Source: a virus
Length of the DNA stretch: 62,899 bases
Virus record (IMG/VR): IMGVR_UViG_3300032304_001576
Span: 1 to 62,899 of that record
Strand: one strand, 5' to 3'
Both the position numbers and the translations under genes were made by a program. Below are positions 12,397 through 36,052 of this stretch, in pieces. Below the pieces are notes generated by a model, which was not told where the DNA came from, ran no database searches, and saw nothing but the letters and a program-made list of their open reading frames with translations. Positions within the stretch are counted from its first letter, which is position 1. Every line of letters begins with the position of its first letter.

Positions 12397-12401
12397 CTGA
12401 G

Positions 12402-12474
12402 TCCGCCAGGGTGGAATTGAACCACCTATCTTTTCCTTATAAGAGAACTGCATCGACCGTTATGCTACTGGCGG
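12402..12474 (-). tRNA. tRNA-Ile (TAT)
   Basis: Acceptor CCGCCAG/CTGGCGG, D-stem GCAT/ATGC, loop CTTATAA giving anticodon TAT (reads ATA), T-arm GGTGGTTCAATTCCACC, discriminator A. ATA is rare in GC-rich actinobacteria but frequent in the virion genes here. Its 5' ten bases overlap the end of the endonuclease VII gene. Confidence 0.88.
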
Positions 12475-13595: not shown

Positions 13596-13719
13596 AGTTA
13601 ACGGTGATCTTGATCTAGCCGATATTGATACAAACCAGCCAGTTCCTGCTGGATGGGCTCCAGAACAAGATGAACTCCCCTTCCCAGCGTCTGATAAGAA
13701 TGAGGACCCCAATGGTTAA
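13588..13719 (+). CDS. hypothetical acidic Pro-rich peptide, 43 aa
   Basis: MPEVNGDLDLADIDTNQPVP continues acidic and Pro-rich to NEDPNG. It overlaps the holin end and the endolysin start by 8 nt each, with AGGAG before the ATG. Position suggests a lysis accessory role; no family recognised. Confidence 0.7.
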   Translation: MPEVNGDLDLADIDTNQPVPAGWAPEQDELPFPASDKNEDPNG

Positions 13720-14596
13720 TCCTACTCCCACCCAAATTCGTCAAGCCCTCATCGATCACGGTGTTGATGCTCAATTCTATAAAGATTGGGATAAGAAAGG
13801 GCAATCATGGAGTAATGGCTTGCAGGCATGTGTAGTCCATCACACTTCAACTCAATCTGCTGTAAACGGAAACGGTGCGCCATCACTTTACTGGGCTGTA
13901 AATGCTTTTGCCCCCATGATGGTTGCAAACCAACTAGTCGGAAAAGATAGAGGTAGTAACTGGTATCTTAGCGCTGGAGGGACATATCATAGCGGCGACG
14001 GTGGACCTTGGAGCGCAGTAGGTGTAGGTACAGGAAATGTTCTACATTGGCGTGCATGGGGTATTGAAATAGATGACCCAGGTCAATCAAATACTATTAA
14101 TGCTTATCAGGTAGAGCAAGTCGGTAGAACTCTTGCTGCTCTTTGGGACCTTTGTGAATGGCCTGAAGATGGATCTCGTATCATCACCCACGGCGACTGG
14201 ACTGACTCAGGTCCATACCTTGGTGAAAAGAACTATGGCCCATATCGTTATCGTAAGAATGACACATTACGTCAATGGTATGATCAGGAATTCTGGCGTA
14301 ATGAGGCAAGAAAGTATAGACTAAAGGCTTCCACCTGGGACGGTACAATTCCTTCCCGCTCTATTGCAACAAAGGCTGCTACAGAAAAACTAAAGAACAA
14401 GGCTTCATGGCGTGTTGCCTGCCACCTACATGATCTTGGATTCCGTAAGCAAAAACCATTCGCTGCAGGGAAACAATCATTTCCAACAGCCGCTCTTAAG
14501 TTATACCAAGAGTCAATCGGAATTAAGGAAGATCGCCGTGACGGTATGCCTAATAAGACCACCTGGATTAAATTATTTGGGAAGGATAAACCATAA
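13712..14596 (+). CDS. endolysin, N-acetylmuramoyl-L-alanine amidase
   Basis: 294 aa from the ATG at 13712 (GAGG 6 nt upstream). Residues about 36-190 form an amidase_2/PGRP-type domain, with VVHHTS (H43, H44), WGIEIDD and ITHGDW (H160) as probable zinc or active-site positions. Residues about 220-292 look like a peptidoglycan-binding domain (CHLHDLGF, FPTAALKLYQ, GMPNKTTW). It cleaves the stem peptide from the glycan at lysis. The frame could be opened 29 codons earlier, but that would overlap the preceding gene fully. Confidence 0.9.
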   Translation: MVNPTPTQIRQALIDHGVDAQFYKDWDKKGQSWSNGLQACVVHHTSTQSAVNGNGAPSLYWAVNAFAPMMVANQLVGKDRGSNWYLSAGGTYHSGDGGPWSAVGVGTGNVLHWRAWGIEIDDPGQSNTINAYQVEQVGRTLAALWDLCEWPEDGSRIITHGDWTDSGPYLGEKNYGPYRYRKNDTLRQWYDQEFWRNEARKYRLKASTWDGTIPSRSIATKAATEKLKNKASWRVACHLHDLGFRKQKPFAAGKQSFPTAALKLYQESIGIKEDRRDGMPNKTTWIKLFGKDKP

Positions 14597-17942: not shown

Positions 17943-20900
17943 GTGTCCTATAGCCAACTTATTTTGCGCGACTCAGCCGAAATTGTATGGCCCCTGGATG
18001 ATATAACCGAATCATCTTCTGTATCAAAGCCAATCAATTTTTTCACAGATAATGAGAATGCATACAGCGCATCAATTAATATAGCCTCTACTAATATAGT
18101 AAAGAACCCTATGGTTTTTGGCGGTGGAACCTTACTAGAGTTTACTAGTTCCGCAGTAGGCCTATCGATTCCTGCCATGGACAGATTCTCTGAGTATTAT
18201 GACAATAGAGACTCTACTATATCTTTATGGTTTCAAACTAATTCATTACCTACAGAAGAATATACTATTTTTAAAAAACGTGGGTATGAAAATATTGGTC
18301 TATTCATTAAAAATAATTATTTAATATTTAGATACGGGACAAGTGCTAGTTACAATGAATTGTCCGTAGACTTTGTAAATGTTAAAGAACCTCATCACAT
18401 AGTACTATCTAGAAATAGATCTGGGCTAGTAATGGTTCTAGACGGAGTTTCATACTCTAGCAAAGACGGTGAAAGTATAAGGCTAGAGAAAGACGCATCT
18501 CATGCAAACAATAACTACATAGATTTTTATGGACCACCAAATGGTTCATGGAATATAGACGCCCCCTCATTCTATCCAAACATATTGAATACTAATGTTG
18601 CTAAAAGACATTATGTTTATGGTCTTGGAAAGAGTGTTCCAGAAAAAACTTTTTATTCTCGCGGTGGCAGCCTTTACAACTTTACAACAATATATACAGA
18701 AAGACTTAGTGATATTAATTGGGACTACCCAGATGAGTGGAAGATTACAGAATTAGTAGATTTAAATAATGATGAGTTTGGATTAGGTCCAGTAAAATTT
18801 ACAGGTCCGCATACATACTCATTTGATAACAATATTGATACATCTTCTAATAAATATAAGTTTAGTTCAAGTGTTGCCAATACTGAGGCTTCATACATAG
18901 AAATAAATAAACTATTTTCTAAATTAGATTCTGGACAGTACCCGTTTTTTGTTAAATTTAAATTAGACGGAGAACTTCCAGCAAAATATTTATCTCAAAG
19001 ATTAATATCAATAGGTCGTATTGCTAATGAAGAAGTTCTAAAATTTGATTTATACAATAATAACGGAACGTATCAGGTAAAAGTATCGGCAATTAATTCA
19101 TCATCTGTAGCATTCAATATATCAAACGTATCCGCTAGTTTGAGTTTCTATGTAGGTATGAAGTTTGACGGAGCCACTAGTTTATACTTTGCCCAGTCAG
19201 GTAGTGCTATACAAACAGCATCATTCAACTATACTTCTGCTAGTTCAACAGGCCTAGACCCACTTCTTCCTTATCTACCTTGGACGTATGAGACATTACT
19301 AAGAATTGGTAGTTCTTTAAATTATGATGAGACTAGTTTTAATAACAATGTTTACGGGGTAGAGCAGTATTTAGGATCAGTACAAAGATTTTTAGTTGCA
19401 CAAACAGATTTTTCAGCGTCATCAAATTATTCTTATATAGAAAACTATGATAAACCAAGGTATGAGTTTAACTATGATTCCAGTATAAATAGATTTAAGG
19501 TTAAAACATATGGTCATGGAAGTTTTAACTTACACACTATAAATTTTTCAGAATACATAAGTGATACCAATCAAAGAATTGGTGCAAACTACATTGCAAT
19601 AGGTTATCCATTTACAGAATCTTCATCATTCGTAAACTTCTACGCTACGCTAATGTCATATAGTGGTAGCGTTATTAATCCACAAACTATGCTATCTGAA
19701 AACAACTACCTAAACTTTCTCAATAACGTTGACCTGTCTGACAAATATTTAAAGATAGACTTTGAAATATATTCGGACGATTCACTTTACTACCCACCAA
19801 GAGTAAAATACTTTAAGATGCAGACATTTAAAACTACAAATAACTCTGTAGTTTTAAAGGACGACGCTGGACCTAGTTATACTTTGTATCCTTCAGCATC
19901 ATCGGTGTATCTTCCAGAAATAAGATATACCCCAAGCATTTTTATGACAGAAGATTCTGGTATTAAAATAACAAGAACCTACGCAGATTTTACTGAAAAT
20001 ATTTTGCCAAAGCCACTCAACCCTTTGACAATAAATGGCCTTAAATTATGGCTAGACTCTAGGTTTATAAATGGATTGAATAAAATTAATCCTAATGATG
20101 ACACAAGATTAACTTCGTGGAAAGATTTATCAAATAACAATAATAACGCGATTCAGACAACATCCTCAGTAGCACCAGTTTTTAGAACACAGTCGTTAAA
20201 CTTGTTAAGAATGAACCAGTTGGATGGCGGAGAGGGTGATGACACCTCATTTATTATTCCAACTAATTCAACGATATCAACAAACGTTGAGGGGGCTATT
20301 TCTGGAACGAGAGGAATACAGGTAATTCCAAGCGGCAGTTCAACAAACTCCTATATTGATGTAAGTTTTAATACTGCTTCTATTACTGTATTTCCCTCGC
20401 AATCATATTCTGTAGTTGGAAGTATAAAAATGTTTAAGCCTCAAACGGCATCTTCCCTGCATCAGAATGCAAGAAAAATAATGGTATATACAACAGACGG
20501 AGTTACTGAAACTTTATCGGCATCTTCTATTGCTGCAAATAATTCTGCCAGCGTTTATTCATTATCAGCAGTATTTACTACCACCGCATCCACAGTATCT
20601 GCAAGAATATTGTTTTATAACGGCTCCTATGATGCAAGCGATAGTGTTTATTGGGATAACTTAGGTTTATATCCAGTAACCGCATCAAGTTCTCAGTATC
20701 AATGGGTTCAACCTTTGACCCTAAGAGATAACCCAGTTGTAAAATTTGATGGGTATAAAACATTTTTACAGTCATCTGCCTCTATAAGCCAGCCTTATAC
20801 ACTATATGTTGTTGGAAGGACTTTCAATAAATCAGTAATTTTAGGAAACTCTTCTTCTGCATTATTGTATTCTAAGGATGGATACTACTACTTTAACTCT

Positions 20901-21185
20901 GGTAGCGCCGCTCAAATGAGTCCAATAAATAAAGAGTTTAATATCTACACAGTAACTGTTAATTCTGGTAGTGCAAGATTTTATCTGAATGGACAATCAG
21001 AGGGTCTTAAATACTCTGGATTTAATAATTTTAATAATTTAAATATAGGTAAAGGTATCATTCCTGGAGAAGCAGTATCCTATTTGTCAGGAGATGTATG
21101 CTCTGTCCTGCTATTTGAAAATGAACATAATTCTAACACTAGGGAAACTATAGAAAATTGGCTTCTAGAGTCATTTAACATTTAG
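17943..21185 (+). CDS. large virion protein with LamG-like lectin domains
   Basis: 1080 aa from GTG with GGAGGATAG upstream. Residues about 50-165 show a LamG/concanavalin-like jellyroll (STISLWFQTN, HHIVLSRN, GLVMVLDGVSY), and a second occurs near residues 690-1075 (GLKLWLDSRFINGL, DNPVVKFDGYK, ARFYLNGQSEGLKY). Such domains bind glycans. It is likely a tail-tip or fibre protein that contacts the host cell wall. Confidence 0.75.
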   Translation: MSYSQLILRDSAEIVWPLDDITESSSVSKPINFFTDNENAYSASINIASTNIVKNPMVFGGGTLLEFTSSAVGLSIPAMDRFSEYYDNRDSTISLWFQTNSLPTEEYTIFKKRGYENIGLFIKNNYLIFRYGTSASYNELSVDFVNVKEPHHIVLSRNRSGLVMVLDGVSYSSKDGESIRLEKDASHANNNYIDFYGPPNGSWNIDAPSFYPNILNTNVAKRHYVYGLGKSVPEKTFYSRGGSLYNFTTIYTERLSDINWDYPDEWKITELVDLNNDEFGLGPVKFTGPHTYSFDNNIDTSSNKYKFSSSVANTEASYIEINKLFSKLDSGQYPFFVKFKLDGELPAKYLSQRLISIGRIANEEVLKFDLYNNNGTYQVKVSAINSSSVAFNISNVSASLSFYVGMKFDGATSLYFAQSGSAIQTASFNYTSASSTGLDPLLPYLPWTYETLLRIGSSLNYDETSFNNNVYGVEQYLGSVQRFLVAQTDFSASSNYSYIENYDKPRYEFNYDSSINRFKVKTYGHGSFNLHTINFSEYISDTNQRIGANYIAIGYPFTESSSFVNFYATLMSYSGSVINPQTMLSENNYLNFLNNVDLSDKYLKIDFEIYSDDSLYYPPRVKYFKMQTFKTTNNSVVLKDDAGPSYTLYPSASSVYLPEIRYTPSIFMTEDSGIKITRTYADFTENILPKPLNPLTINGLKLWLDSRFINGLNKINPNDDTRLTSWKDLSNNNNNAIQTTSSVAPVFRTQSLNLLRMNQLDGGEGDDTSFIIPTNSTISTNVEGAISGTRGIQVIPSGSSTNSYIDVSFNTASITVFPSQSYSVVGSIKMFKPQTASSLHQNARKIMVYTTDGVTETLSASSIAANNSASVYSLSAVFTTTASTVSARILFYNGSYDASDSVYWDNLGLYPVTASSSQYQWVQPLTLRDNPVVKFDGYKTFLQSSASISQPYTLYVVGRTFNKSVILGNSSSALLYSKDGYYYFNSGSAAQMSPINKEFNIYTVTVNSGSARFYLNGQSEGLKYSGFNNFNNLNIGKGIIPGEAVSYLSGDVCSVLLFENEHNSNTRETIENWLLESFNI

Positions 21186-24975: not shown

Positions 24976-25311
24976 GTGTCAACTTATAATCTTAAACAAT
25001 TAGTTCCTGCCAGACCTCTTCCTAGTTCTGCTAGTGTTTTATATACCGTTCCATCTTTAACTCAAACAGTAGTTAGACAAATAATTCTTGGAAATACCAC
25101 AGCAACAGATCTTACTGCAACTATATATTTTGTTCCAGACAGTGGATCACCATCTACGTCTAATTCAATGTTTCCAGAAATTATTATTCAAGCCAATAAT
25201 GCTGTGACAATAGATATTGCCAGCGTTTTGTCGTCTTCTTCATCAATTCACGCTAAAGCAAGTGCTTCTGCCTCTATAAATATTCATATCTCAGGAGTAG
25301 AGGTTAGTTAA
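24976..25311 (+). CDS. small beta-rich virion protein, 111 aa
   Basis: GTG start with a strong AAAAGGAGG. MSTYNLKQLVPARPLPSSAS then beta strands (RQIILGNTT, LTATIYFVPD, NAVTIDIASVL). It resembles small phage decoration or adapter proteins; exact role unknown. TATAAT at 24950-24955 may drive it and the fibre gene that follows. Confidence 0.65.
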   Translation: MSTYNLKQLVPARPLPSSASVLYTVPSLTQTVVRQIILGNTTATDLTATIYFVPDSGSPSTSNSMFPEIIIQANNAVTIDIASVLSSSSSIHAKASASASINIHISGVEVS

Positions 25312-26966
25312 TGTCTATAGAAAATATTCCAGTTACTGGGATATATAATACTCGCGGCGGAGAATCGGTATATGGACCTGGAACAGATGGAAATGTTACA
25401 ATAACAGGAACAGTCTCTTTAAATAGAGATATGTATTATAACAATCTAACTGTTCAATCTGGGGCACAACTGGATACAAATGGCTATAGGGTTTTTGTAA
25501 AAAATACTCTTAATATGTCAGACCCTACTGCAACGATAGGAAGACTTTCTAATACAACAACAACAGGAACTTTAAAAGGCGGTGCCGTAGCAGGTATCAA
25601 GGCATCTGATACTTTAGGGGGAAATGGAGGTCTAAACCCAGGAGAAAATTTTTTCGGGGAGGCCGAATTTTATAATTTTTCTCAGGCTATTGCTGGTTAT
25701 AAGTTTAATGCGGTTGCAGGAACATTAAAGTTTTTAATGGGTGGCAGCGGTGGTGCCTCTGGACCAGCAGGCGCAACAGGACAAAGTGGATCTTTTACCT
25801 CTGGAAGCCCAGGGACTTCTGGTAGCGCTGGATCTCTTGGCACCCGTCCAGGATTTACTGCATCAGTAGGGGCTCCTGGTGGACAGGGGTATCCAGGGAC
25901 TAGTGGTAGCGCAGGTTCTCCAGGAATTGGAGGCGCTGGTGGAGCAGGAGGTATAGGGGGGACTGGAGGCGCAGGCGGAGGGGTCGTAATAATATCAGCA
26001 AGATATATTACTGGATATGGAATAATTAGAGCCGATGGACTTGGAGGTCTGGCTGGCACCGCAGGATCTCCTGGATCTCCAGGTTCAAATGGATCTTCAG
26101 GGGCAAACGGAGTAGCAGGATTACCCGCACCAGACTTCTTTGAAGCAGCGTACACATATATATCACAGTATGCTTACAACTATTATTTTTCATATTCTAA
26201 TGAAGCCTATACTGTGTATGGTACAACATATAGTTATCCAGCGACTCCTACTGTTGGATATAATACCGCTTATGTCCCACCACAGTATGACCCACCTGTT
26301 CCAGCATATGGAGGAAATAGACCCACTACACTAGGAAATGAAGCAAGAGTAAATCCATTCGTTGCTTCATCTGGTGGAAATCAGATAAGAACAACTGGTG
26401 GAAATCAAAATCCTTTTGCAAGAAATCCAGCAAGACAATTCGGAGGAAACTTCAACCCTGTATCCGAACTTAGAGTAAATCCATTCGTTCCTTCATATGG
26501 TGGAAACCAGATAAGAGTAAATCCTACTACATATGGACCTGTTAACCCATTTGTCCCTGCTTATGCAGGATACTTCAAGCCAGGATATACAAATACTTAT
26601 GCATACCCATATGTGGCATATCCATTGGCAGCATATCCATTTAGCGTGTATATACCACCCTCGCCTGCGTCCAACTTTGAATTTTCACCACAACAAAATG
26701 CATTCGTTCCATCACAATTTTGGCCTGGTGGAGCAGGAGGCGCTGCTGGAATAGGTGGCGCGGGTGGAATTGGAAGCGCTGGATTACCAGGATCTCCAGG
26801 AACTTCTGGTTATGCTGGTGGTGGAGGCGTGGTGTTAGTGATTACTGAAAATAATATTACTGAAAATATAGAAATTCGTGCTGCTGCAGGCACAGGCGGC
26901 AGCGGCGCGGCAACATCAGGAACTGTTATAATTATTAAAAATGAGGCGGTAAAAAATGGCAATTAA
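25311..26966 (+). CDS. collagen/polyglycine-like fibre with Pro/Tyr-rich insert
   Basis: 551 aa. Residues 1-70 form a domain shared with the next gene (RDMYYNNLTVQSGAQLDTNG). About 144-275 is Gly-rich with G-x-y runs (GPAGATGQSG, GSPGTSGSAG, GGAGGAGGIGG), as in collagen-like or polyglycine-helix adhesins. About 276-470 is an odd Pro/Tyr/Asn low-complexity stretch with repeats of VNPFVPSYGG and YPxxAYP. A second Gly-rich block and a beta tail follow. Probable receptor-binding protein, and candidate substrate of the downstream hydroxylase and glycosyltransferases. Confidence 0.75.
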   Translation: MSIENIPVTGIYNTRGGESVYGPGTDGNVTITGTVSLNRDMYYNNLTVQSGAQLDTNGYRVFVKNTLNMSDPTATIGRLSNTTTTGTLKGGAVAGIKASDTLGGNGGLNPGENFFGEAEFYNFSQAIAGYKFNAVAGTLKFLMGGSGGASGPAGATGQSGSFTSGSPGTSGSAGSLGTRPGFTASVGAPGGQGYPGTSGSAGSPGIGGAGGAGGIGGTGGAGGGVVIISARYITGYGIIRADGLGGLAGTAGSPGSPGSNGSSGANGVAGLPAPDFFEAAYTYISQYAYNYYFSYSNEAYTVYGTTYSYPATPTVGYNTAYVPPQYDPPVPAYGGNRPTTLGNEARVNPFVASSGGNQIRTTGGNQNPFARNPARQFGGNFNPVSELRVNPFVPSYGGNQIRVNPTTYGPVNPFVPAYAGYFKPGYTNTYAYPYVAYPLAAYPFSVYIPPSPASNFEFSPQQNAFVPSQFWPGGAGGAAGIGGAGGIGSAGLPGSPGTSGYAGGGGVVLVITENNITENIEIRAAAGTGGSGAATSGTVIIIKNEAVKNGN

Positions 26967-27630
26967 AAATTATGCTGGAAATTCAGCATCTACTACTTTT
27001 ATTCCAGACCCAATTTATGGTTCTGGAAAAGATGGAAATTCTACTGCATCTGCTAATTTTTCTCTTACTAGAGATATGTATTATAATAACTTAACTATTA
27101 ACTCTGGAGTCCATCTGAATACTAATGGGTACAGAGTTTTTGTTAGGAATATTTTACTTTTTAATGGATCTACAGATCAAGATGCTAACACTAGCCTAGG
27201 TCTTAAGAATGGATCTAATTCTGTAGGGTCTTTAGGAAGAGGTTTTACTGCTTCAGTTTCAAATAGCCTTGGTGGAAATAGCGCAAGTTATAATGCATTT
27301 GGCCCATCTGCTAGTTTCGGAGGGGCAGACTACTTTGACCGACCAGAATATGCCGTAGAAGGGTATATTTTAAATGCTATACAGCAAACTCCCCTGCCTT
27401 TAAATGGTGGCGCGGGGAATTCAACTAATCCTGGTGGAGGGGTGGTAGTAGTATCAGCAAGAAGAGTCTCTGGAAGGGGGACTATTTATGCCGATGGGTT
27501 TAATAATGGAACGGCATATTTAACGGGTGGTGGAGTAGCAATATATTGTTCTAATAAAATAAAACCTTCATCAATTAATATTAATACGTTAGGATATACA
27601 AGTGGATCAGCCCTACAGTTTGTGGTATAA
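26956..27630 (+). CDS. fibre tip paralog, 224 aa
   Basis: Shares the N-terminal module of the preceding gene (GSGKDGN...LTRDMYYNNLTINSG, NTNGYRVFVRN) and the Gly-rich end motif (GGGVVVVSARRVSGRGTIYADG), but lacks the long Gly and Pro/Tyr blocks. Overlaps the previous gene by 11 bases. A minimal version of the same adhesin. Confidence 0.7.
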   Translation: MAIKNYAGNSASTTFIPDPIYGSGKDGNSTASANFSLTRDMYYNNLTINSGVHLNTNGYRVFVRNILLFNGSTDQDANTSLGLKNGSNSVGSLGRGFTASVSNSLGGNSASYNAFGPSASFGGADYFDRPEYAVEGYILNAIQQTPLPLNGGAGNSTNPGGGVVVVSARRVSGRGTIYADGFNNGTAYLTGGGVAIYCSNKIKPSSININTLGYTSGSALQFVV

Positions 27631-27633
27631 ATA

Positions 27634-28116
27634 ATGAAAGTCTATTTATATGTTCCAGAAGATTTAGATGCTTCAGAGTATCTTATAACGGCAGCACAAA
27701 ATAATATAGATCAGATAATCCACGGATCGTCTGATATATTAAAAGATCTTAAATATAATCATAATGAAGTCAGCGCAATAAATGTTCCAGAATTTTGCGG
27801 AGTCTGGATGGAGTCAGTAGTGTTCCCTACTGATACAGATGTACCTCTAGTTTTTATTGATGAGTGGAGTAATGAAAAAGGGTATAGTAAAATAACTGCT
27901 GTAATAGATGAAATAGATTTAGAAAATCCAAAAAAACACTCAACAATAGAAGAAGTTGAGTTAAACTATGATGATAAAAATTCATACTATTATAAATTTA
28001 GTTTTAAAAACATTGGTGAATATAGAATTAATTTAATGGCAGAATTTTTAGACGGGGAAAAAACTTTAATAGAGAGTAAAGACATTATTGTATTTAGAGG
28101 TAAAAATGGAAATTGA
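27634..28116 (+). CDS. hypothetical protein, 160 aa
   Basis: MKVYLYVPEDLDASEYLITA, acidic, with beta-strand patterning in the second half (YKFSFKNIGEYRINLMAEFLDG) like an Ig-type fold. First gene of the probable modification cassette; it may instead belong to the fibre set. No family recognised. Confidence 0.65.
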   Translation: MKVYLYVPEDLDASEYLITAAQNNIDQIIHGSSDILKDLKYNHNEVSAINVPEFCGVWMESVVFPTDTDVPLVFIDEWSNEKGYSKITAVIDEIDLENPKKHSTIEEVELNYDDKNSYYYKFSFKNIGEYRINLMAEFLDGEKTLIESKDIIVFRGKNGN

Positions 28117-28741
28117 TAAAAATATTCCAGGGCTTGCGTCCTTTGATCAAGTATTAATCTTTTCTGAAGAAGAAATAAACATGTTTGAAAATATATTCAA
28201 TAGTGATGAGTTTAAAAAACTTAATGAATCAAAAAGTATAAAAAACTCTCTATGGAATATATTTTACCATCTAGATTGTATAGAATTAATTAAAAAAATT
28301 CAAAAGACACTCTTAATTTGTTTAGCAGAATATTCAGATTATTATAAAGAGTCAATACATTCTATTCAATGGCAGGAAAGAATAGATTTAAAGATATTAT
28401 ACCCAGGCGAGTCAGAGTATATGTTTAATCCAAGTAAATCCTTCAATGTAAAAGATAATATACCTTTCAGCCGTCAAATAGTTGCTGAGATTGGTATTGA
28501 AGATGCTCACCATGGCGGCAAATCCTCATGGGAGTATTTTAATGTAGATGAGAAAATACTAAAATCTGGAGAGATAAGAATTTATCCTGCAAGTTACTTG
28601 TATTCAAATACTACATCAACTATACTGGATGGAAGAAAGATATATCTAAGGACATTCTTTAATGGTGGCAAAGACTTTATATCAGAAGATGAGTCTTTCG
28701 ATGGTTTTGAAAACATTTATATGTTTTCCTATATGAGATAA
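28106..28741 (+). CDS. degenerate 2OG-oxygenase-like protein
   Basis: 211 aa from ATG 28106 (GAGG upstream). It aligns by eye with the C-terminal half of the next protein: LYPGESEYMFNPSKS against YSPGNEYKAHSDSG, and YLYSNTTSTILDGRKIY against YAYMHRAKAVLDGIKY. The iron ligands His, Asp and His of the neighbour are replaced by Asn, Ser and Asn. It is therefore probably an inactive partner or a repurposed fold. Confidence 0.6.
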   Translation: MEIDKNIPGLASFDQVLIFSEEEINMFENIFNSDEFKKLNESKSIKNSLWNIFYHLDCIELIKKIQKTLLICLAEYSDYYKESIHSIQWQERIDLKILYPGESEYMFNPSKSFNVKDNIPFSRQIVAEIGIEDAHHGGKSSWEYFNVDEKILKSGEIRIYPASYLYSNTTSTILDGRKIYLRTFFNGGKDFISEDESFDGFENIYMFSYMR

Positions 28742-28749
28742 GGATCGTA

Positions 28750-29397
28750 ATGACCACAGAGGCACCGTATCCCTCAAAAACTGAGGCAGGCTGCATTGAA
28801 ATATATAATAATATAATGCCTCAAAGTGCTGCAGATAAATTAATTGAATCGTTTGAGTTTTCAGATACTAGTAGTCTATGTAAGGCTGAATATTCAAAGG
28901 CACGCATGGGGGCGGGGCCACAATCTATTAATGGGGGTCTCTATAGATCTAATCAGACAATGAGCCTCTTCCCTCATGATTGTGAAGATAAAGATTGCAA
29001 GATGACTAATGCTATAGAGTATTTGTTAGAGAGATATGTTGCTTGCGTAAATCACTATCAATCAAAGTACGAGGTTGAGATAGGCTTTGACGAGGGCTTT
29101 CAATTGCTAAAGTATTCACCAGGAAATGAATACAAGGCTCACTCAGATAGTGGTCCAGGGCAAGATTTTAGAGTTGTATCTGGTCTAATTCTTTTGAATC
29201 CATCAGAATATATCGGAGGCGGAACGTACTTTACTAATTTTGACGTTACTATAAAAACAGATACGCCATCTATAATTTTATTCCCATCAAATTATGCTTA
29301 TATGCACAGGGCAAAAGCAGTACTTGATGGCATTAAGTACGCTATTGTTACATGGATGGGTCCACCATGGAGAGGTCCAGAATTACATGAACAATAA
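28750..29397 (+). CDS. 2-oxoglutarate/Fe(II) oxygenase, prolyl 4-hydroxylase type
   Basis: 215 aa double-stranded beta-helix enzyme. Iron ligands H131-x-D133 (AHSDSG) and H186 (YMHRAK), 2-oxoglutarate-binding K196 (GIKYAIVTW) and the strand GGGTYF, like the G-G-x-T-x-F of P4Hc proteins. It should hydroxylate a protein side chain, most simply proline, using O2. Placed between the Pro/Gly-rich fibre and three GlcNAc-type glycosyltransferases. Confidence 0.88.
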   Translation: MTTEAPYPSKTEAGCIEIYNNIMPQSAADKLIESFEFSDTSSLCKAEYSKARMGAGPQSINGGLYRSNQTMSLFPHDCEDKDCKMTNAIEYLLERYVACVNHYQSKYEVEIGFDEGFQLLKYSPGNEYKAHSDSGPGQDFRVVSGLILLNPSEYIGGGTYFTNFDVTIKTDTPSIILFPSNYAYMHRAKAVLDGIKYAIVTWMGPPWRGPELHEQ

Positions 29398-30601
29398 AAA
29401 AAGATTTGACAGTTATTCAAACACCTTTCTAAATTATGATGAAATAGAAAGACTTACTAAATCTATTTTTATTTCAATAGTTTCATATAATGATGAAAAT
29501 ATTTTAAGGACAATTAATTCAATAATGTTGAATTCTAAAAGACCTGAAAATATTTTTATTGGGCTGGCGGTAGTAGATTATCAAGAGTCTCATATAAAAA
29601 CTCTTTTAGAAATTAGTGAAAAGAATAGAAATTTAAATATTTATATAATTAATGAACGTACAACATATGGGTATCTAAAACATAAAGCCGATTCATTTTA
29701 TAACAAAGAAGACTACTATATGAGTGTTTCATCTTGCTCAGAATTTGACCCATATTGGGATGACATATTAATAAAACAATATGATGCATTTGAAACAATA
29801 ACCTCTCCACAACCACTATTAATAACTGGAGAGCCTAGAGGCTGGCTTCCACACGATAATGTGGTTGAGGGGTATGTATATTTTACTAATCATAGAACTA
29901 ATGCATCTATGCAAAGAGAAGTAAATGATTCATCCTACCTTCCTATATCTGGATATCATGAGAATATAAAAAAAGAACATCTTGAAAGTAATTTTTCTTC
30001 ATCAATGAGTGAGTATGATATATCAAGGTATATTACCGAACTATCTGAATGCTCAGAATTTCTAAAAGAAAATGGGTTTGTAAAGTTTTCAAAAAGAAAG
30101 TTCCTAGACGATGAATTTGTTGCAAGATCTCTAGGACTTTCTTGCAATTTTATTTTCACTAAAGCAAAAAACTATATAAAAATTAACACACTAAATAATA
30201 ATTTAATAGATGAGGAAGACTTTAATTTTAACTCAATGATTAACCTACTGAATAATGACTATTTAATTTTATCAACAAGGTATATCCCCCTGTATCATTT
30301 ATATGATAATAAAGAAGTATTTTCTTATAAAAGAAAAAGAATATCTGAAGAATATACTCCAGATGAAAAATTAAATATGAGGTCATATATTTTAGATAGA
30401 GTAAAGAATTTTGAATTCCTAGGTGATGATAAAAAATTATATTACTCTGTAATATTTAGCACAGACTGGTACGCTAGAGAATTCAAATTGAGGAAAAGTC
30501 ACATAAGAACTAGTCTAGAAACTTTGATAAACCTATCTATATCTATGTACAATTTCTCTATGAATGAAAACTCTCTACATTGGAATAAAAGGGACAGATG
30601 A
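29387..30601 (+). CDS. GlcNAc-type glycosyltransferase homolog, catalytic motif altered
   Basis: 404 aa from ATG 29387. IFISIVSYNDENILRTINSI and KRPENIFIGLAV match the start of PF11397-type GlcNAc-transferases, and KEDYYMSVSSCSEFDPYWDD fills the place where active members have D-S/C-H. Loss of the Asp and His suggests an inactive or changed enzyme. Overlaps the oxygenase gene by 11 bases. Confidence 0.7.
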   Translation: MNNKKRFDSYSNTFLNYDEIERLTKSIFISIVSYNDENILRTINSIMLNSKRPENIFIGLAVVDYQESHIKTLLEISEKNRNLNIYIINERTTYGYLKHKADSFYNKEDYYMSVSSCSEFDPYWDDILIKQYDAFETITSPQPLLITGEPRGWLPHDNVVEGYVYFTNHRTNASMQREVNDSSYLPISGYHENIKKEHLESNFSSSMSEYDISRYITELSECSEFLKENGFVKFSKRKFLDDEFVARSLGLSCNFIFTKAKNYIKINTLNNNLIDEEDFNFNSMINLLNNDYLILSTRYIPLYHLYDNKEVFSYKRKRISEEYTPDEKLNMRSYILDRVKNFEFLGDDKKLYYSVIFSTDWYAREFKLRKSHIRTSLETLINLSISMYNFSMNENSLHWNKRDR

Positions 30602-31305
30602 AAAAAATAATATTTACTATGACAGAACCAGACCTATCAGATGTAGCAGAATTCCCCTCACCATCTATTAAAAATCTACCAGAATGGTATAAAGAAATGT
30701 CTACTTTTATTGGTGGCGAAAAAATGAAAGTAGACAATGGTGAGGCCAATCTAACTGTTAAAAAATGTGTTCCCGTACTTGATGCGATATCATCTGGATA
30801 CATAATAAAGTTATGGACTGATGTTTTTGTATCTAGGGATGATAATGGAGTATCATACTCCTTTAGTGTAAAAAACAATAATGTGCCACCAGCAGTAACT
30901 GGCCACCCAATGGATCAGGCTCCGACTTATCCTATTAAAGATATGTACGATAAAGATATTCTGAAGTGGGTAAACCCATGGCATATAAAAACTCCAAGTG
31001 GGTACAGTACATTATTCACTACTCCAAATCATAGAGATCTACCTTTTGAAATAATGGAAGGGGTTGTAGATACAGATATATTCCCTCTTTCAGTTAACTT
31101 TCCATTTTTCATAAAAAAGGGTTTTGAAGGACTTATTCCATATGGGACTCCAATAGCCCAGGTTATTCCGTTTAAAAGAGATTCCTGGTCCTCTTCGGAA
31201 GGAGAGTTCGATCAGAAGAAGTATTCTTCTATGCATAATTTTCATGATAGCAACTTTATAAATAGATATAAGAGAAAATGGTGGAGCAGAAAGGTATATA
31301 AGTGA
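30598..31305 (+). CDS. cassette paralog 1 (DUF6065-like?), 235 aa
   Basis: LPEWYKEM near the N-terminus, KKCVPVLDAISSGYIIKLW, WHIKTPSGYSTLFTTPNHRDLPF, VDTDIFPL and YGTPIAQVIPFKRDSW. These blocks recur in the next two genes and recall a phage family I associate with DUF6065 (unverified). Start overlaps the glycosyltransferase stop as ATGA. Function unknown. Confidence 0.7.
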   Translation: MKKIIFTMTEPDLSDVAEFPSPSIKNLPEWYKEMSTFIGGEKMKVDNGEANLTVKKCVPVLDAISSGYIIKLWTDVFVSRDDNGVSYSFSVKNNNVPPAVTGHPMDQAPTYPIKDMYDKDILKWVNPWHIKTPSGYSTLFTTPNHRDLPFEIMEGVVDTDIFPLSVNFPFFIKKGFEGLIPYGTPIAQVIPFKRDSWSSSEGEFDQKKYSSMHNFHDSNFINRYKRKWWSRKVYK

Positions 31306-32045
31306 TTTTTAAAAAAAATAAAAATACAGTTAAAGAGTATTTAGATATAACTTTTGTGGCTAAAGATGAATTTATTGCAGAGGCGACACAGGCTCCTGTT
31401 CCAGCCAGAACATTAGTGCCAGAGTGGTATAAGGATATGTCAACTCATAGAACAAAAACACCCGACTTTGACGAACATTTTGGTAATCAAAATACTACAT
31501 TTAAAGCCTGTATGCCATTTTTTGATAGTTGGACTTTTGGCTATGTAGCAGTCACGCCGTGTGACCTAGTTGTTGAAGTTGGTTTTGATGAAAATGACAT
31601 TAAGATACACGGAAATAAAATTTTTGATCTTATTGGATATCGTGGGGCACCGAATAAACATTCTATGCCAATCCCAGATGATTACTATCAATTAGAGTTT
31701 ACATGGCAAACTCATTGGGAGGCCCAGACTCCTGATGGATACAGTTCTTTTTATACACATCCAATAAATAGGCCCGAACTACCATTCTATACAATATCTG
31801 GAGTAATGGATACTGATAAGTGGTATGCTACTGGAAATCATCCATTTTTCTTAAAAAAAGGTTTTGAGGGCATTATCCCCATGGGCACCCCAATGATGAG
31901 TATCATTCCTTTTAAAAGAGACACTTGGAAAAGTGATAAAAGATCAATGAGGCCGATGGAATACGATGTTTTAAATAGTAAAGTTAGAAGACATGCTTCT
32001 TCTGGGTATAAAAAAGAGATGTGGCAGAGAAAGGATTTTTCATAA
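31302..32045 (+). CDS. cassette paralog 2, 247 aa
   Basis: GTG start overlapping the previous stop (GTGA), AAAGG upstream. Same blocks as paralog 1: VPEWYKDM, KACMPFFDSWTFGYVAV, QTPDGYSSFYTHPINRPELPF, MDTDKWYA, MGTPMMSIIPFKRDTW. The order and spacing are kept. Function unknown. Confidence 0.7.
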   Translation: MIFKKNKNTVKEYLDITFVAKDEFIAEATQAPVPARTLVPEWYKDMSTHRTKTPDFDEHFGNQNTTFKACMPFFDSWTFGYVAVTPCDLVVEVGFDENDIKIHGNKIFDLIGYRGAPNKHSMPIPDDYYQLEFTWQTHWEAQTPDGYSSFYTHPINRPELPFYTISGVMDTDKWYATGNHPFFLKKGFEGIIPMGTPMMSIIPFKRDTWKSDKRSMRPMEYDVLNSKVRRHASSGYKKEMWQRKDFS

Positions 32046-32737
32046 TGAAGGTAAAATGGATACCTCAGAACGAATTTGCTAGTAAGTTTATAGATCCGCC
32101 AAAGCCAGCAAAAAATTATATACCAGAATGGTATAAAAAACTACCGCAATTTACGACTGGTAATAGACCTAAATTTTTTGGTAAAAGAGCAAATACAACT
32201 GCAAAACATTGTATGCCATTGCTAGATTCATTTACTACTGGCTATATTCAGGAAACATGGTGCGACATAGCAGTTACTAGATTAGACAATGAAATTCAAG
32301 TTTCTTTTGCAGCACCAGAACAAAATCTTTTTGTAGATGGGCACGATAAAAATCCAATATTTCCAGAAACTGGGTACTATGATAAAATGTTAGCATGGTG
32401 GACCCAATGGGAGCCTCAGACTCCTAAGGGATGGTCTACACTATACACCCACCCGCTGAACCAAAATAATTTACCATTTTATACAATAAGCGGAGTCATT
32501 GATACAGATAAATGGCCTGTAGGTGGTAAAATTCAATTCTATATAAAAGATGGGTTCGAAGGAATAATTCCAAAAGGTACTCCTATGTATCAAATGATTT
32601 TTTTTAAGAGAGAGAACTGGAAATCAGAAGTTAATCCACATGATCAAGAATGGTTTGTTAAAACAAATAAAAAAGTTTTTGATTACTTCCATTCTGGATA
32701 TAGAAATAATATCTGGGTGAAAAAAAATTATGAATAA
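32045..32737 (+). CDS. cassette paralog 3, 230 aa
   Basis: ATG 32045 overlaps the previous stop (TAATG) with AAAGGA upstream. Same blocks: IPEWYKKL, KHCMPLLDSFTTGYIQE, QTPKGWSTLYTHPLNQNNLPF, IDTDKWPV, KGTPMYQMIFFKRENW. Most similar to paralog 2. Three tandem copies suggest subunits of one complex or copies for different targets. Confidence 0.7.
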   Translation: MKVKWIPQNEFASKFIDPPKPAKNYIPEWYKKLPQFTTGNRPKFFGKRANTTAKHCMPLLDSFTTGYIQETWCDIAVTRLDNEIQVSFAAPEQNLFVDGHDKNPIFPETGYYDKMLAWWTQWEPQTPKGWSTLYTHPLNQNNLPFYTISGVIDTDKWPVGGKIQFYIKDGFEGIIPKGTPMYQMIFFKRENWKSEVNPHDQEWFVKTNKKVFDYFHSGYRNNIWVKKNYE

Positions 32738-33872
32738 AAAGTCTATATTTGTATCTATACCGTCTATGAATGATAGAGAATATCTTCATACGGTTAAAAG
32801 ACTTTTCGAATCAGCAACTCACCCAGAAAGAATTTTTTTAGGCAGCACTATCTTTTGGAAAAAATCAGATATATCAGAAGTAGGAGCCCCATTCTTCTAT
32901 CACTTTGATCAACAACTTTCAAAAATAAAAAGAAATATAAAGTACGATATTTTATATTGGAATAATTACCCAGGGGTTGGATTTGGAAGAACAGAGCCTT
33001 TAAAACATTATAATAATGAAGATTATTATCTTTCATTAGATTCTCATACAATGTTTGTAAAAGGGTGGGACGAAAAAGTAATAGAGACTTATGAGAATGC
33101 AAAAAAAAGTTTTGGCAAACGACTAGTTTTAACTTCATATTTAGCCCCATATTATATTAAATCCGACAAAGATGCCCCTCTAGAAATAGACAAACTTCTT
33201 CCAGGAGTAGATGGTCTAGACGTATTTGAGTATGAAGATATAGTGTTTGTACAAAATGATAATGATCCAAGGTGGCAGTTTTTTGACTATACTCATTTTA
33301 GATATAGGTCTAACATTCAAACTAAAAGTATCTTTCCCTATCCAAATGATGTATCTTTAAATAGGGCTGGTCAATTTATTCTTCCACATTTAATAGATGA
33401 AATGTATTTGCCTGCTAAAAAAATATCTGCTCACTTTACTTTTACGGAAGCAGATCCATGGGTAACTAAATTTAATCTTAATTTAGATAGAAGAATATCT
33501 TTTTGGCTAGAAGAGTTTTATCAATCATCTTTATCCTATGCTAGAGGGTATAATCTTGTTTGGGCGAAAGAAACATTTTTCTTCCATAAATATTTAAACT
33601 CACAACACAGGCTACACGATCAAAAATATGAATATGACTCAATGTACAAAAAAAGAATTTTTTATGAAAAATATATAAAAACTATAGAAAATAAGACCCC
33701 GTTGCCGTTAGATGAAAATGAAATAATTAAAAAATTTCTCAATAAAGAAGAGTATTTTGGCTTTCTTCCTAGAAGCCCTATTTCTTTTCAAAAATACTCA
33801 GGAGTCAACCTAGAGATATCTAGGTGTGAACCGTGGTGGAAGGTGCCCGAGGTTGATATCATCTACAAATAA
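32730..33872 (+). CDS. GlcNAc-type glycosyltransferase (PF11397-like)
   Basis: 380 aa. SIFVSIPSMNDREYLHTVKR, HPERIFLGS, GVGFGRTEPLKHYNNEDYYL and SLDSHTMFVKGWDEKVIE follow the family pattern closely, with the D-S-H metal/nucleotide-sugar motif intact. The founding members add GlcNAc to hydroxyproline on a cytoplasmic protein in Dictyostelium (Skp1). Overlaps the preceding gene by 8 bases. Confidence 0.82.
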   Translation: MNKKSIFVSIPSMNDREYLHTVKRLFESATHPERIFLGSTIFWKKSDISEVGAPFFYHFDQQLSKIKRNIKYDILYWNNYPGVGFGRTEPLKHYNNEDYYLSLDSHTMFVKGWDEKVIETYENAKKSFGKRLVLTSYLAPYYIKSDKDAPLEIDKLLPGVDGLDVFEYEDIVFVQNDNDPRWQFFDYTHFRYRSNIQTKSIFPYPNDVSLNRAGQFILPHLIDEMYLPAKKISAHFTFTEADPWVTKFNLNLDRRISFWLEEFYQSSLSYARGYNLVWAKETFFFHKYLNSQHRLHDQKYEYDSMYKKRIFYEKYIKTIENKTPLPLDENEIIKKFLNKEEYFGFLPRSPISFQKYSGVNLEISRCEPWWKVPEVDIIYK

Positions 33873-34587
33873 AAATATTTATATTCCTTTTAGAGAAGAC
33901 AGTATAACCAATAGGAATGAAATGTTCAAAGTGGTAAAAGAATATTATAATAACTTGGGGTATAACGTAGTCGCTCTAGACTCAGGAGATGATGACTTTA
34001 ACCTATCTAAGTCAAGGAATATGGCCTTCACTAACTACGATGATAATGAAGTTATATTAATAAATGCAGACTGCCTGATCTTTGATATGGCAATAGAGGA
34101 TTCTTTGAAATTAATAAAAGAAAGATCTTCTATTGTAAAACCATTCTTAAAACTTTTAAGAGTTTCAGCCATAGATAAAAAATTTATTGAATCTATCATA
34201 GATAATGAAATTTTTGATATAAAGATAGAGTCTCAAAGTAATAGTTTTTATCCTGGAGAGGCTTTTATTTTAAATAAAAGTTCTTGGGAAAAAGTTGGCG
34301 GGTTCAATGAAAATCTTTTAGACCCAATAATATCAAGTATAGACTTCTGCCTGAGAGCATCAGAATTATCAGAGTTAGTATTTTTAGAATACGATGCATA
34401 TAGTTTTCATCATCCAAAAGTCTCTGGAAGAAAAGAAAGAGATGGAGAGTCCCACCTATTTGAAGTGAATAAATCATTTTTTAATGGTGATAAAAATATT
34501 TATTTATCAAGATTTGGGAACAAACTTATTAAAATGAATGAAAGTGAAAATAAAATCAGTTTAATATTTAATTTAGAAAACTATTAA
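33853..34587 (+). CDS. GT2-like glycosyltransferase
   Basis: About 244 aa from TTG 33853 (AAGG upstream; a GTG at 33826 is possible but overlaps more). IYIPFREDSITNRNEMFKVV, FNLSKSRNMAFTN, ILINADC in place of D-x-D, and WEKVGGFNENLLDP are typical of GT2/GT7-C type transferases. Probably extends or adds a second sugar; donor and acceptor unknown. Confidence 0.7.
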   Translation: MISSTNKNIYIPFREDSITNRNEMFKVVKEYYNNLGYNVVALDSGDDDFNLSKSRNMAFTNYDDNEVILINADCLIFDMAIEDSLKLIKERSSIVKPFLKLLRVSAIDKKFIESIIDNEIFDIKIESQSNSFYPGEAFILNKSSWEKVGGFNENLLDPIISSIDFCLRASELSELVFLEYDAYSFHHPKVSGRKERDGESHLFEVNKSFFNGDKNIYLSRFGNKLIKMNESENKISLIFNLENY

Positions 34588-35539
34588 TAAGTTCGTTTTC
34601 ATTACTAAGTCCCCGAACACCATCAATAAATAAGTCTTGCATATTAACTTTAGCGTACTCTTGAAACTTTTTAATCTTGTGTTTATTAGAAATATAATAA
34701 TTAATGATTTCTTCTTTTGCTTCACTTCTATATAAAAATTCTGTGGATAGAATTTCTCTTTTACCCCCAATAGAATTAATATCCTCATAGTAAAGATGAG
34801 CCACAGGCATAGGCTCTAGTGGAGTTAGCAGTTTGAATCCATGATGGATTAATTCTATAGACATAAATAACTCTTCCTCTGGAAGAGTATAGTCGTATTG
34901 TATTAAAGAGTCATAGTTTTCAGCGAATTGTTGATCTCCAAATAATAAACCTCCAGAAATTTTTTGGTTCAATTCAAAATTTCCTGGAGAGTCATCAACC
35001 ACTCTATCATTAAAATTGGGGAGTATATTGTATATACTTGGGTCATCGCGGTACTGAGTGGATGAGATATTAGTATCAATAAAATAAGATACTGCTGGAA
35101 ACCATGAGTACCGCAAACTAATTCCATTTTCAGTATAAAAATAAGAATCAGGGTAGCCAGTTATAACAGATTTTCCAAAGATACTTTGCCCACGAATTAA
35201 TTGATCGATAAGAGTTAAGTCCCAATCCTTTTTATAAAGGCTATGGCAGTCCACTTGGAGCATATAATCCTCTCCTGAGTACATCTCATAAGCCTTCCTT
35301 CTTCCCACCCCTGTACCCATGTGATTAGTTGAACTGTAATATTTAAAATTACTTTTAGGAACTATTTGCTGTATTTCTTTTCCAATATTTAATATATCTT
35401 CTTTACTTAAAACTCTAGATGAATGAGCAATTCCTAAAAATATTTCATTCTCTCCGCTAGATTGAGATAAACAACTCTTAATAGATTTTATTAGTTCAGA
35501 GTCAGATAAACTACATATAGAAACATATATGCTGGACAT
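34568..35539 (-). CDS. GlcNAc-type glycosyltransferase on opposite strand
   Basis: 323 aa. SSIYVSICSLSDSELIKSIK, GENEIFLGIAH, GTGVGRRKAYEMYSGEDYML and QVDCHSLYKKDWD show the same family as the gene at 32730 with D-C-H intact. Convergent with the GT2-like gene, overlapping it by 20 bases. AGGAA precedes the ATG. Its reverse orientation suggests separate control or recent inversion. Confidence 0.78.
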   Translation of the reverse strand: MSSIYVSICSLSDSELIKSIKSCLSQSSGENEIFLGIAHSSRVLSKEDILNIGKEIQQIVPKSNFKYYSSTNHMGTGVGRRKAYEMYSGEDYMLQVDCHSLYKKDWDLTLIDQLIRGQSIFGKSVITGYPDSYFYTENGISLRYSWFPAVSYFIDTNISSTQYRDDPSIYNILPNFNDRVVDDSPGNFELNQKISGGLLFGDQQFAENYDSLIQYDYTLPEEELFMSIELIHHGFKLLTPLEPMPVAHLYYEDINSIGGKREILSTEFLYRSEAKEEIINYYISNKHKIKKFQEYAKVNMQDLFIDGVRGLSNENELINSFLN

Positions 35540-35554
35540 TTAATATTCCTGTCT

Positions 35555-36052
35555 TTAGTTAAAGGTTTCTAGCCATTCAGAATAAGTATAATAATTTCCA
35601 TCTTCTGCTAAGAATTTAGTAAAATTATCTTGGTATTCTATACACCACTTTTTTAACATCTCATTAACAAATGGCTCGCGTTGATCAAGGGGAGGAGGCA
35701 TTAGAAGAACTTGATTGTAATATGCTAAATAAGATTTAATAGCGCTACCGATCCAGTACCCAATTCCATTGCTCTGAAAAAAAGAATTTACAGTTAAAGA
35801 TGTAACGTAAAATACGTTGCCATTTAATCCGGTAAACCATCCAATAGATGCAACAATAAATTCTGGATTAATGTCGTAATTATTATCAAATATAATAGAC
35901 TTATTATCGTGATCGGGATTGTTTATTAAAAAGGCTTTCTTAAAACCATTGGGCTCGTCCTTGATGTTTAACCAAGAATTTTCTACAATAGTAGGCCAAT
36001 AAGTAGTTAAAAATTCTAAATCATAAACCATTCCATTTAATTCTTCACGCAT
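35555..36052 (-). CDS. GNAT-like acetyltransferase (tentative), 165 aa
   Basis: The segment FYVTSLTVNSFFQSNGIGYW and IGSAIKSYLAYY resembles GNAT motif A (V-x-x-x-x-Q/R-x-x-G-x-G/A). The rest is not recognised. Forms a two-gene minus-strand unit with the glycosyltransferase at 34568. Confidence 0.5.
   Translation of the reverse strand: MREELNGMVYDLEFLTTYWPTIVENSWLNIKDEPNGFKKAFLINNPDHDNKSIIFDNNYDINPEFIVASIGWFTGLNGNVFYVTSLTVNSFFQSNGIGYWIGSAIKSYLAYYNQVLLMPPPLDQREPFVNEMLKKWCIEYQDNFTKFLAEDGNYYTYSEWLETFN

Follow-up and report, generated by a model that had tools for sequence, protein, structure and literature searches.

What would a phage do with a prolyl-4-hydroxylase (P4H)-type 2-oxoglutarate (2OG)-Fe(II) oxygenase and several glycosyltransferases encoded a few genes downstream of a glycine-rich fibre? 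The question is raised by IMG/VR virus record IMGVR_UViG_3300032304_001576, a 62.9-kb stretch from an apparently freshwater phage analysed here as a whole (the window), for which an earlier note had proposed that the phage hydroxylates prolines of its own fibre and glycosylates them. The open reading frames (ORFs) on which that proposal was built are all present and intact, and our analysis argues for a broader explanation in which we place moderate confidence: the window carries a swappable fibre-tailoring island, where the enzymes encoded behind the fibre gene FIBa would modify its product after translation. Graded by step, modification of the fibre is likely, hydroxylation of its prolines plausible and a hydroxyproline (Hyp)-linked glycan possible. 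From protein families, motifs, synteny, proline position and module divergence, all directly observed, we infer the fibre as substrate, the modified residue and an effect on host binding or fibre protection.

The oxygenase is an intact P4H-type enzyme, as the earlier note had it: it scores 36.9 bits against PF13640 (cut-off 27), the only Pfam family matched at E ≤1, and no TET/JBP-type profile is hit. Its HxD/H/K residues (H131, D133, H186 and K196) do not vary among the four closest sequences or within the window's own clade, and hardly at all across 89 homologues. Among solved structures it comes nearest to peptidyl P4Hs (best E 2e-5), and the seven matches at E ≤0.01 are P4Hs (3itq, 5hv0, 5iax, 5c5t, 2jig and 2jij) together with 3gze, a Chlamydomonas P4H deposited as "Predicted protein"; the source organisms are Bacillus anthracis, the chlorovirus PBCV-1 and Chlamydomonas. 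Among these nearest enzymes, PBCV-1 P4H (5c5t) and anthrax P4H (3itq, 5hv0; compare the glycosylated BclA) act on Pro-rich or collagen-like peptides, and we know of no fibre cassette in which either stands with PF11397 enzymes.

Linkage of this hydroxylase to one fibre family recurs well beyond the window. Alignment-based scans of IMG/VR fetched 80 loci through the oxygenase and 78 through the fibre, and a P4H scan of further genome contigs gave one short match. The loci were grouped by hidden Markov model (HMM) score and gene order, not by a tree, into clades I (the window's) to IV, with clade II marine ("marine" and "freshwater" being inferred labels that do not come from sample records). 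At least 6 kb of downstream sequence was available for 58 distinct FIBa homologues: a P4H-type oxygenase gene follows in 56 of them and a gene for a dUTPase-fold protein, here termed U, in every one; the two P4H-less exceptions (L131 and L143) encode a 498-residue protein at the position otherwise held by a halogenase, with a PF04820 match in L143. Every hydroxylase relative of at least 50% identity with enough upstream sequence has the fibre, so that close relatives carrying the enzymes alone were not encountered. Where the resemblance stops at the N-terminal fibre motif (25 loci), P4H, U, PF11397 and halogenase genes are all missing. Nor is the grouping a matter of chance, for the same gene order recurs in other phage contigs: by tblastn, L011/L008 has C, FIBa, FIBb, D, E, P4H, gtA, U1, U2, U3, gtB and gtC (in which its contig ends), L013 keeps the full window order from C through gtC and continues into F and the portal, and L012 retains the downstream part from D, where its contig begins. 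Clade III has the order FIBa, FIBb, gtA, U, U, P4H and clade IV the order FIBb, FIBa, P4H, U. A correlation between fibre and P4H distances (0.89) was discarded as evidence because the FIBb-P4H value is similar (0.82), as shared descent predicts.

A second line of evidence comes from the position of proline within Gly-X-Y tracts, counted where at least six triplets run together. In phage and bacterial collagens Pro is favoured in X and absent from Y, which has been ascribed to the lack of a prolyl hydroxylase (PMC3368898), and anthrax P4H prefers Y-position prolines (PMC8968730). Clade I FIBa proteins have 79 prolines in Y and 3 in X (8 and 1 in the window), while elsewhere on these contigs the Gly-rich ORFs lean the other way, with 19 in Y and 323 in X. 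Clade III FIBa has 10 in Y and 2 in X, and marine FIBa, which lacks Gly-X-Y tracts of this length, contains 242 X-Pro-Gly against 6 Gly-Pro-X motifs. This bias matches the context of a collagen P4H and is the strongest, if indirect, evidence for the fibre as its substrate. The window would offer a phage P4H a candidate substrate, its gene only a few genes from that of the enzyme and its composition marked in a way not seen in ordinary phage collagens.

FIBa itself consists of a conserved N-terminal domain, a Gly-rich region with Y-position Pro, a hypervariable low-complexity insert (residues 282-466; 14% Pro and 14% Tyr) and a conserved Gly-rich C-terminus. Its AlphaFold2 model is mostly confident at residues about 20-281 and 467-548, and the insert falls below 50 in predicted local distance difference test (pLDDT) score; a Foldseek search with the model, which bears on a likeness to solved gp38-like polyglycine adhesins, matched no PDB chain, and tblastn with the N-terminus against 50,697 GenBank phage records gave no match. 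FIBb is a short paralogue of this N-terminus without the collagen tract, and FIBa, with FIBb, is probably a host-recognition fibre or adhesin. The insert is rich in Pro, Tyr, Asn and Thr in clades I-III, with more Asn, Arg and Glu in L008, and contains 24-27% His in clade IV; we therefore rejected the Pro/Tyr-rich insert as a conserved substrate. A hypervariable insert between conserved Gly-rich blocks would also suit an ordinary adhesin with receptor-binding loops, its neighbouring enzymes modifying capsid, tail tube or some other part of the virion, much as mycobacteriophage transferases are described as doing in the account of Freeman et al. 2023 given in PMC12619734. We think this unlikely: in several phage clades the enzymes go with this fibre family, and the Y-position prolines set FIBa apart from Gly-rich proteins encoded elsewhere on its contigs.

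Table 1. Features of the proposed fibre-tailoring region in the window, with the evidence for each.
Feature	Description	Coordinates	Strand	Evidence
C	small conserved protein	24976..25311	+	phrog_1276 E 4e-7; synteny
FIBa	fibre, proposed substrate	25311..26966	+	phrog_5073 tail fibre E 2e-5; alignments
FIBb	fibre-like protein	26956..27630	+	tblastn cross-matches with FIBa; alignment
D	conserved protein	27634..28116	+	conserved in clade I, weakly in clade II
E	degenerate 2OG oxygenase	28088..28741	+	hhalign to P4H alignment; motif table
P4H	prolyl-4-hydroxylase-type 2OG-Fe(II) oxygenase	28750..29397	+	PF13640 E 7e-9; phrog_61 E 3e-25
gtA	PF11397-type glycosyltransferase, altered DxH (SSC)	29387..30601	+	PF11397 E 3e-11 (29294/29387)
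U1	dUTPase-fold protein	30598..31305	+	phrog_7084 E 9e-53; AlphaFold2 model
U2	U1 paralogue	31302..32045	+	phrog_7084 E 2e-39; alignment
U3	U1 paralogue	32021..32737	+	phrog_7084 E 2e-35; alignment
gtB	PF11397 glycosyltransferase, DSH intact	32730..33872	+	PF11397 E 2e-23, 83.9 bits (cut-off 21)
gtC	GT2-like transferase	33853..34587	+	phrog_1721 E 2e-15; PF10111 E 3e-4, below cut-off
gtD	PF11397 glycosyltransferase, DCH intact	34568..35539	-	PF11397 E 1e-15, 58.5 bits (cut-off 21)
ORF 35555	conserved ORF	35555..36052	-	36% identity to L012 ORF

The genes expected to act after the hydroxylase bear out the earlier note in family and less so in chemistry. All three PF11397-like transferases, two intact and one altered as described there, exceed the curated cut-off, and none falls in an unrelated family. 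The DSH motif of gtB is kept in 8 of 8 other homologues found; a PDB sequence search gave no relative of gtB and a GenBank phage search no match. By synteny gtD is accessory, being missing from L012 and L013. The GT2-like assignment of gtC stands on its PHROG match but not on Pfam (Table 1). Polypeptide GlcNAc (N-acetylglucosamine) transferase of Trypanosoma cruzi, a GT60 enzyme, has Thr as its acceptor. This enzyme lies outside the Skp1 pathway, and the GT60 enzymes named in the same source glycosylate polypeptides (PMC6939170). In the Skp1 pathway of Dictyostelium and Toxoplasma (PhyA, the GT60 enzyme Gnt1, and PgtA with its GT2 domain; PMC6939170), a P4H-type oxygenase likewise acts together with PF11397/GT60 and GT2-like enzymes; unlike there, the putative substrate here is a phage fibre, no PgtA fusion is seen, and the cassette has additional pseudoenzymes and dUTPase-fold proteins. 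The exact pathway of the earlier note follows this precedent, with fibre Pro hydroxylated, GlcNAc added to Hyp by a PF11397 enzyme as Gnt1 does on Skp1, and the GT2-like enzyme extending the glycan. It is a special case of fibre tailoring, so that our confidence in the two overlaps, and it draws on the co-occurrence of the three gene types, on the X-Pro-Gly bias and on the presence of both P4H and PF11397 in all clade I and clade III loci. The hydroxylase-fibre link, the P4H structures and the X-Pro-Gly context agree with it, but the Hyp-GlcNAc chemistry itself is possible yet rather unlikely, because GT60 is not confined to Hyp and PF11397 goes undetected in the majority of P4H-bearing marine loci; furthermore, a halogenase replaces PF11397 in another clade, and the constant set is fibre, P4H and U, not the transferase. 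Our literature searches found no report of phage hydroxyproline glycosylation.

We would instead picture fibre tailoring as follows: the P4H-type oxygenase hydroxylates FIBa prolines, mainly at X-Pro-Gly sites of the Gly-rich stretches but possibly also within the disordered insert, after which gtB and gtD, then gtC, would attach and extend a glycan whose acceptor may be hydroxyproline or Thr, Ser or Tyr of the insert. More broadly, Tyr, Thr, Ser, Asn or His could be modified as alternatives. The U proteins would be a constant accessory of the cassette, two inactive enzymes would serve as non-catalytic partners, and the modification may alter host binding or protect the fibre.

The two presumed partners are E and gtA, in clade I conserved pseudoenzymes with open frames under moderate constraint (pN/pS 0.39-0.57), and they are probably kept for a non-catalytic role. 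E aligns to the P4H family with hhalign E 3e-5 and probability 73% (four sequences per side); its HxD is gone in all of clade I and its distal His in all but L098, while marine clade II orthologues retain HSD or HGD, the distal H and R. The DxH of gtA is likewise lost throughout clade I, where other members read SSA, SPS, SSR or GSD, and is intact in clade III (DSH/DAH). Since this loss is common to all clade I relatives, we rejected a sequencing error behind the altered gtA.

E is one of the genes that the earlier note had not listed, together with U1, U2, U3 and the reverse-strand ORF 35555. The U proteins are phrog_7084/DUF6065-like and form a tandem triplicate in the window; the AlphaFold2 model (pLDDT 75; 14 sequences) finds, among the 50 matches listed, only dUTPases, with Z up to 9.9. 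dUTPases have catalytic motifs 1-5, and the U alignment conserves GVxDTD, resembling motif 3, while the Gly-rich motif 5 was not seen on inspection in any of the 14 aligned rows. Because dUTPases are trimers, U1, U2 and U3 might assemble with one another as a heterotrimer. This fold lends itself to an alternative in which oxygenase, transferase, halogenase and dUTPase-fold genes hypermodify DNA or nucleotides and their adjacency to the fibre is positional: some phages pair a 2OG oxygenase with glycosyltransferases acting on DNA, and in the haloviruses HF2 and HRTV-15 (loci L172 and L173) the U homologue lies between ribonucleotide reductase (RNR) and virion genes. We consider this very unlikely, given that the oxygenase matches protein P4Hs and PF13640 rather than TET/JBP-type families, that the module is fixed behind the fibre and not in the replication region, that the halovirus U gene is also near virion genes (in HRTV-15 a putative adhesin and tail fibre), and that DNA modification leaves the composition signature of the fibre unexplained.

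The finishing enzyme, in turn, appears exchangeable. Beside P4H and U, clade IV has a PF04820 flavin-dependent halogenase (E 1e-85 to 1e-109), as do remoter loci whose Gly-rich fibres are of other kinds, and across the tally halogenase and PF11397 never occur together in one fibre locus; these locus tallies include some contigs fetched twice. That the finishing enzyme changes alongside the composition of the insert suggests that both versions act on the fibre. Tentatively, we extend this to interchangeable adhesin-tailoring islands in several phage lineages, in which fibre, 2OG oxygenase and dUTPase-fold partner would be near-constant and the finishing enzyme swapped between GT60 and halogenase; if true, a phage would vary not only the sequence of its receptor-binding loops but also their chemistry, through side chains that are hydroxylated, glycosylated or halogenated. 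PF04820 (tryptophan) halogenases were recorded at L132:13444-14937, L128:14759-16237, L149:13164-14657 and L092:8463-9914, and further ones at L080:2161-3600, L066:11192-12634, L091:10588-12165 and L093:2394-3992, in related phages, where they lie near Gly-rich fibres in the company of a P4H-type oxygenase gene and, in many cases, a U gene. Separately, L014 (Synechococcus phage S-SCSM2R) has a cyanophage cluster with 2OG oxygenases, several glycosyltransferases, a radical SAM maturase and an amidinotransferase.

The cassette also stands apart from the phage backbone. The window portal is 52% identical to those of Streptomyces phages of the Karimac/Bmoc group, and Karimac and the window have in common RNR, then portal, protease, capsid and tape measure. 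In Karimac, just LysM and two hypothetical genes separate RNR from portal, and nothing there is annotated as a fibre, an oxygenase or a PF11397 protein; in the window this place is taken by the fibre region and cassette. Compared with L011 or L012, the window's enzymes show saturated or near-saturated synonymous divergence (dS >1), against about 0.2 for A21719 and FIBb, 0.5 for F36108 and 0.7 for the portal; cassette GC content is 32%, compared with 42% from portal to capsid. Judged by these figures, the divergence resembles that of an exchangeable surface module, which would also suit enzymes that remodel the host envelope or its glycans, as in superinfection exclusion or O-antigen-like change, the usual proposal for transferases of phage host-recognition regions. 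In pelagimyophages, glycosyltransferases share a hypervariable host-recognition cluster with tail fibres, and the authors read them in this way, as host-surface alteration (PMC7029224). For the present locus we find such a role quite unlikely: the GT60 enzymes in PMC6939170 act on polypeptides, a P4H has no obvious envelope role, and both the proline signature and the fibre linkage would remain unexplained.

It is also important to note the points that weigh against FIBa as the modified protein. Gene neighbourhood does not prove a substrate, and the counts and p-values overstate independence because the loci are related by descent; the P4H scan was moreover the source of many fibre loci, including many of clade II. 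At 35-39% identity, remote P4H relatives turn up in places where none of the genes examined encodes a Gly-rich fibre. Of the 53 marine loci, only 12 gave a PF11397 homologue, and two cassette enzyme genes (E and gtA) are catalytically altered. Clade IV has a halogenase, a His-rich insert and no detected PF11397 gene, and its FIBa shows a weak Y bias (17 prolines in Y vs. 8 in X). FIBa scores 16.4 bits against PF01391, where 27.2 are needed, and was rejected as a true Pfam collagen; the Gly-rich flanks and the Pro/Tyr-rich insert described in the earlier note are present. Finally, a Pfam collagen ORF (L108:16209-17597; E 5e-29) directly 3' of a clade III P4H has its prolines in X; by the same token, adjacency alone does not produce the Y-position pattern.

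Among known systems, the collagen chemistry of mimivirus is lysyl, not prolyl, and to our knowledge the virion glycosylation of mycobacteriophages involves no prolyl hydroxylase or fibre linkage. Mimivirus likewise encodes a hydroxylase and a glycosyltransferase for its own Gly-rich protein (PMC8968730; PMC9546862), as the window may do for its fibre, but it is a eukaryotic giant virus with different enzyme families. Mycobacteriophage transferases modify virion proteins, with capsid and tail tube as the targets named where PMC12619734 cites Freeman et al. 2023. The host-recognition clusters of pelagi- and cyanomyophages also combine a hypervariable fibre region and glycosyltransferases with structural proteins bearing collagen repeats, but were interpreted as modifying the host surface, and a fixed fibre-P4H-U order is not described there (PMC7029224). 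Phage and bacterial collagen-like proteins have been described as without hydroxyproline (PMC3368898), and viral use of prolyl 4-hydroxylases has been termed cryptic (PMC9301287). If fibre tailoring holds, phages tune receptor binding or fibre stability through post-translational chemistry, which would help explain the commonness of 2OG oxygenases and halogenases in aquatic phages.

Of the remaining genes, C lies directly 5' of FIBa in nearly all relatives by synteny, D has no match in Pfam or PHROG, and ORF 35555, which has no Pfam match, is possibly acetyltransferase-like when its sequence is judged by eye. Upstream of RNR, an ORF of 323 residues (13625-14596) without a Pfam or PHROG match stands at the position of Karimac glycosyltransferase gene 43. 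ARAGORN called a tRNA-Tyr with anticodon ATA at 12401-12474(-), where GTA would be expected, and positions 17943-21185 encode a structural protein of 1080 residues with LamG/ConA-like domains (PF13385 E 1e-6).

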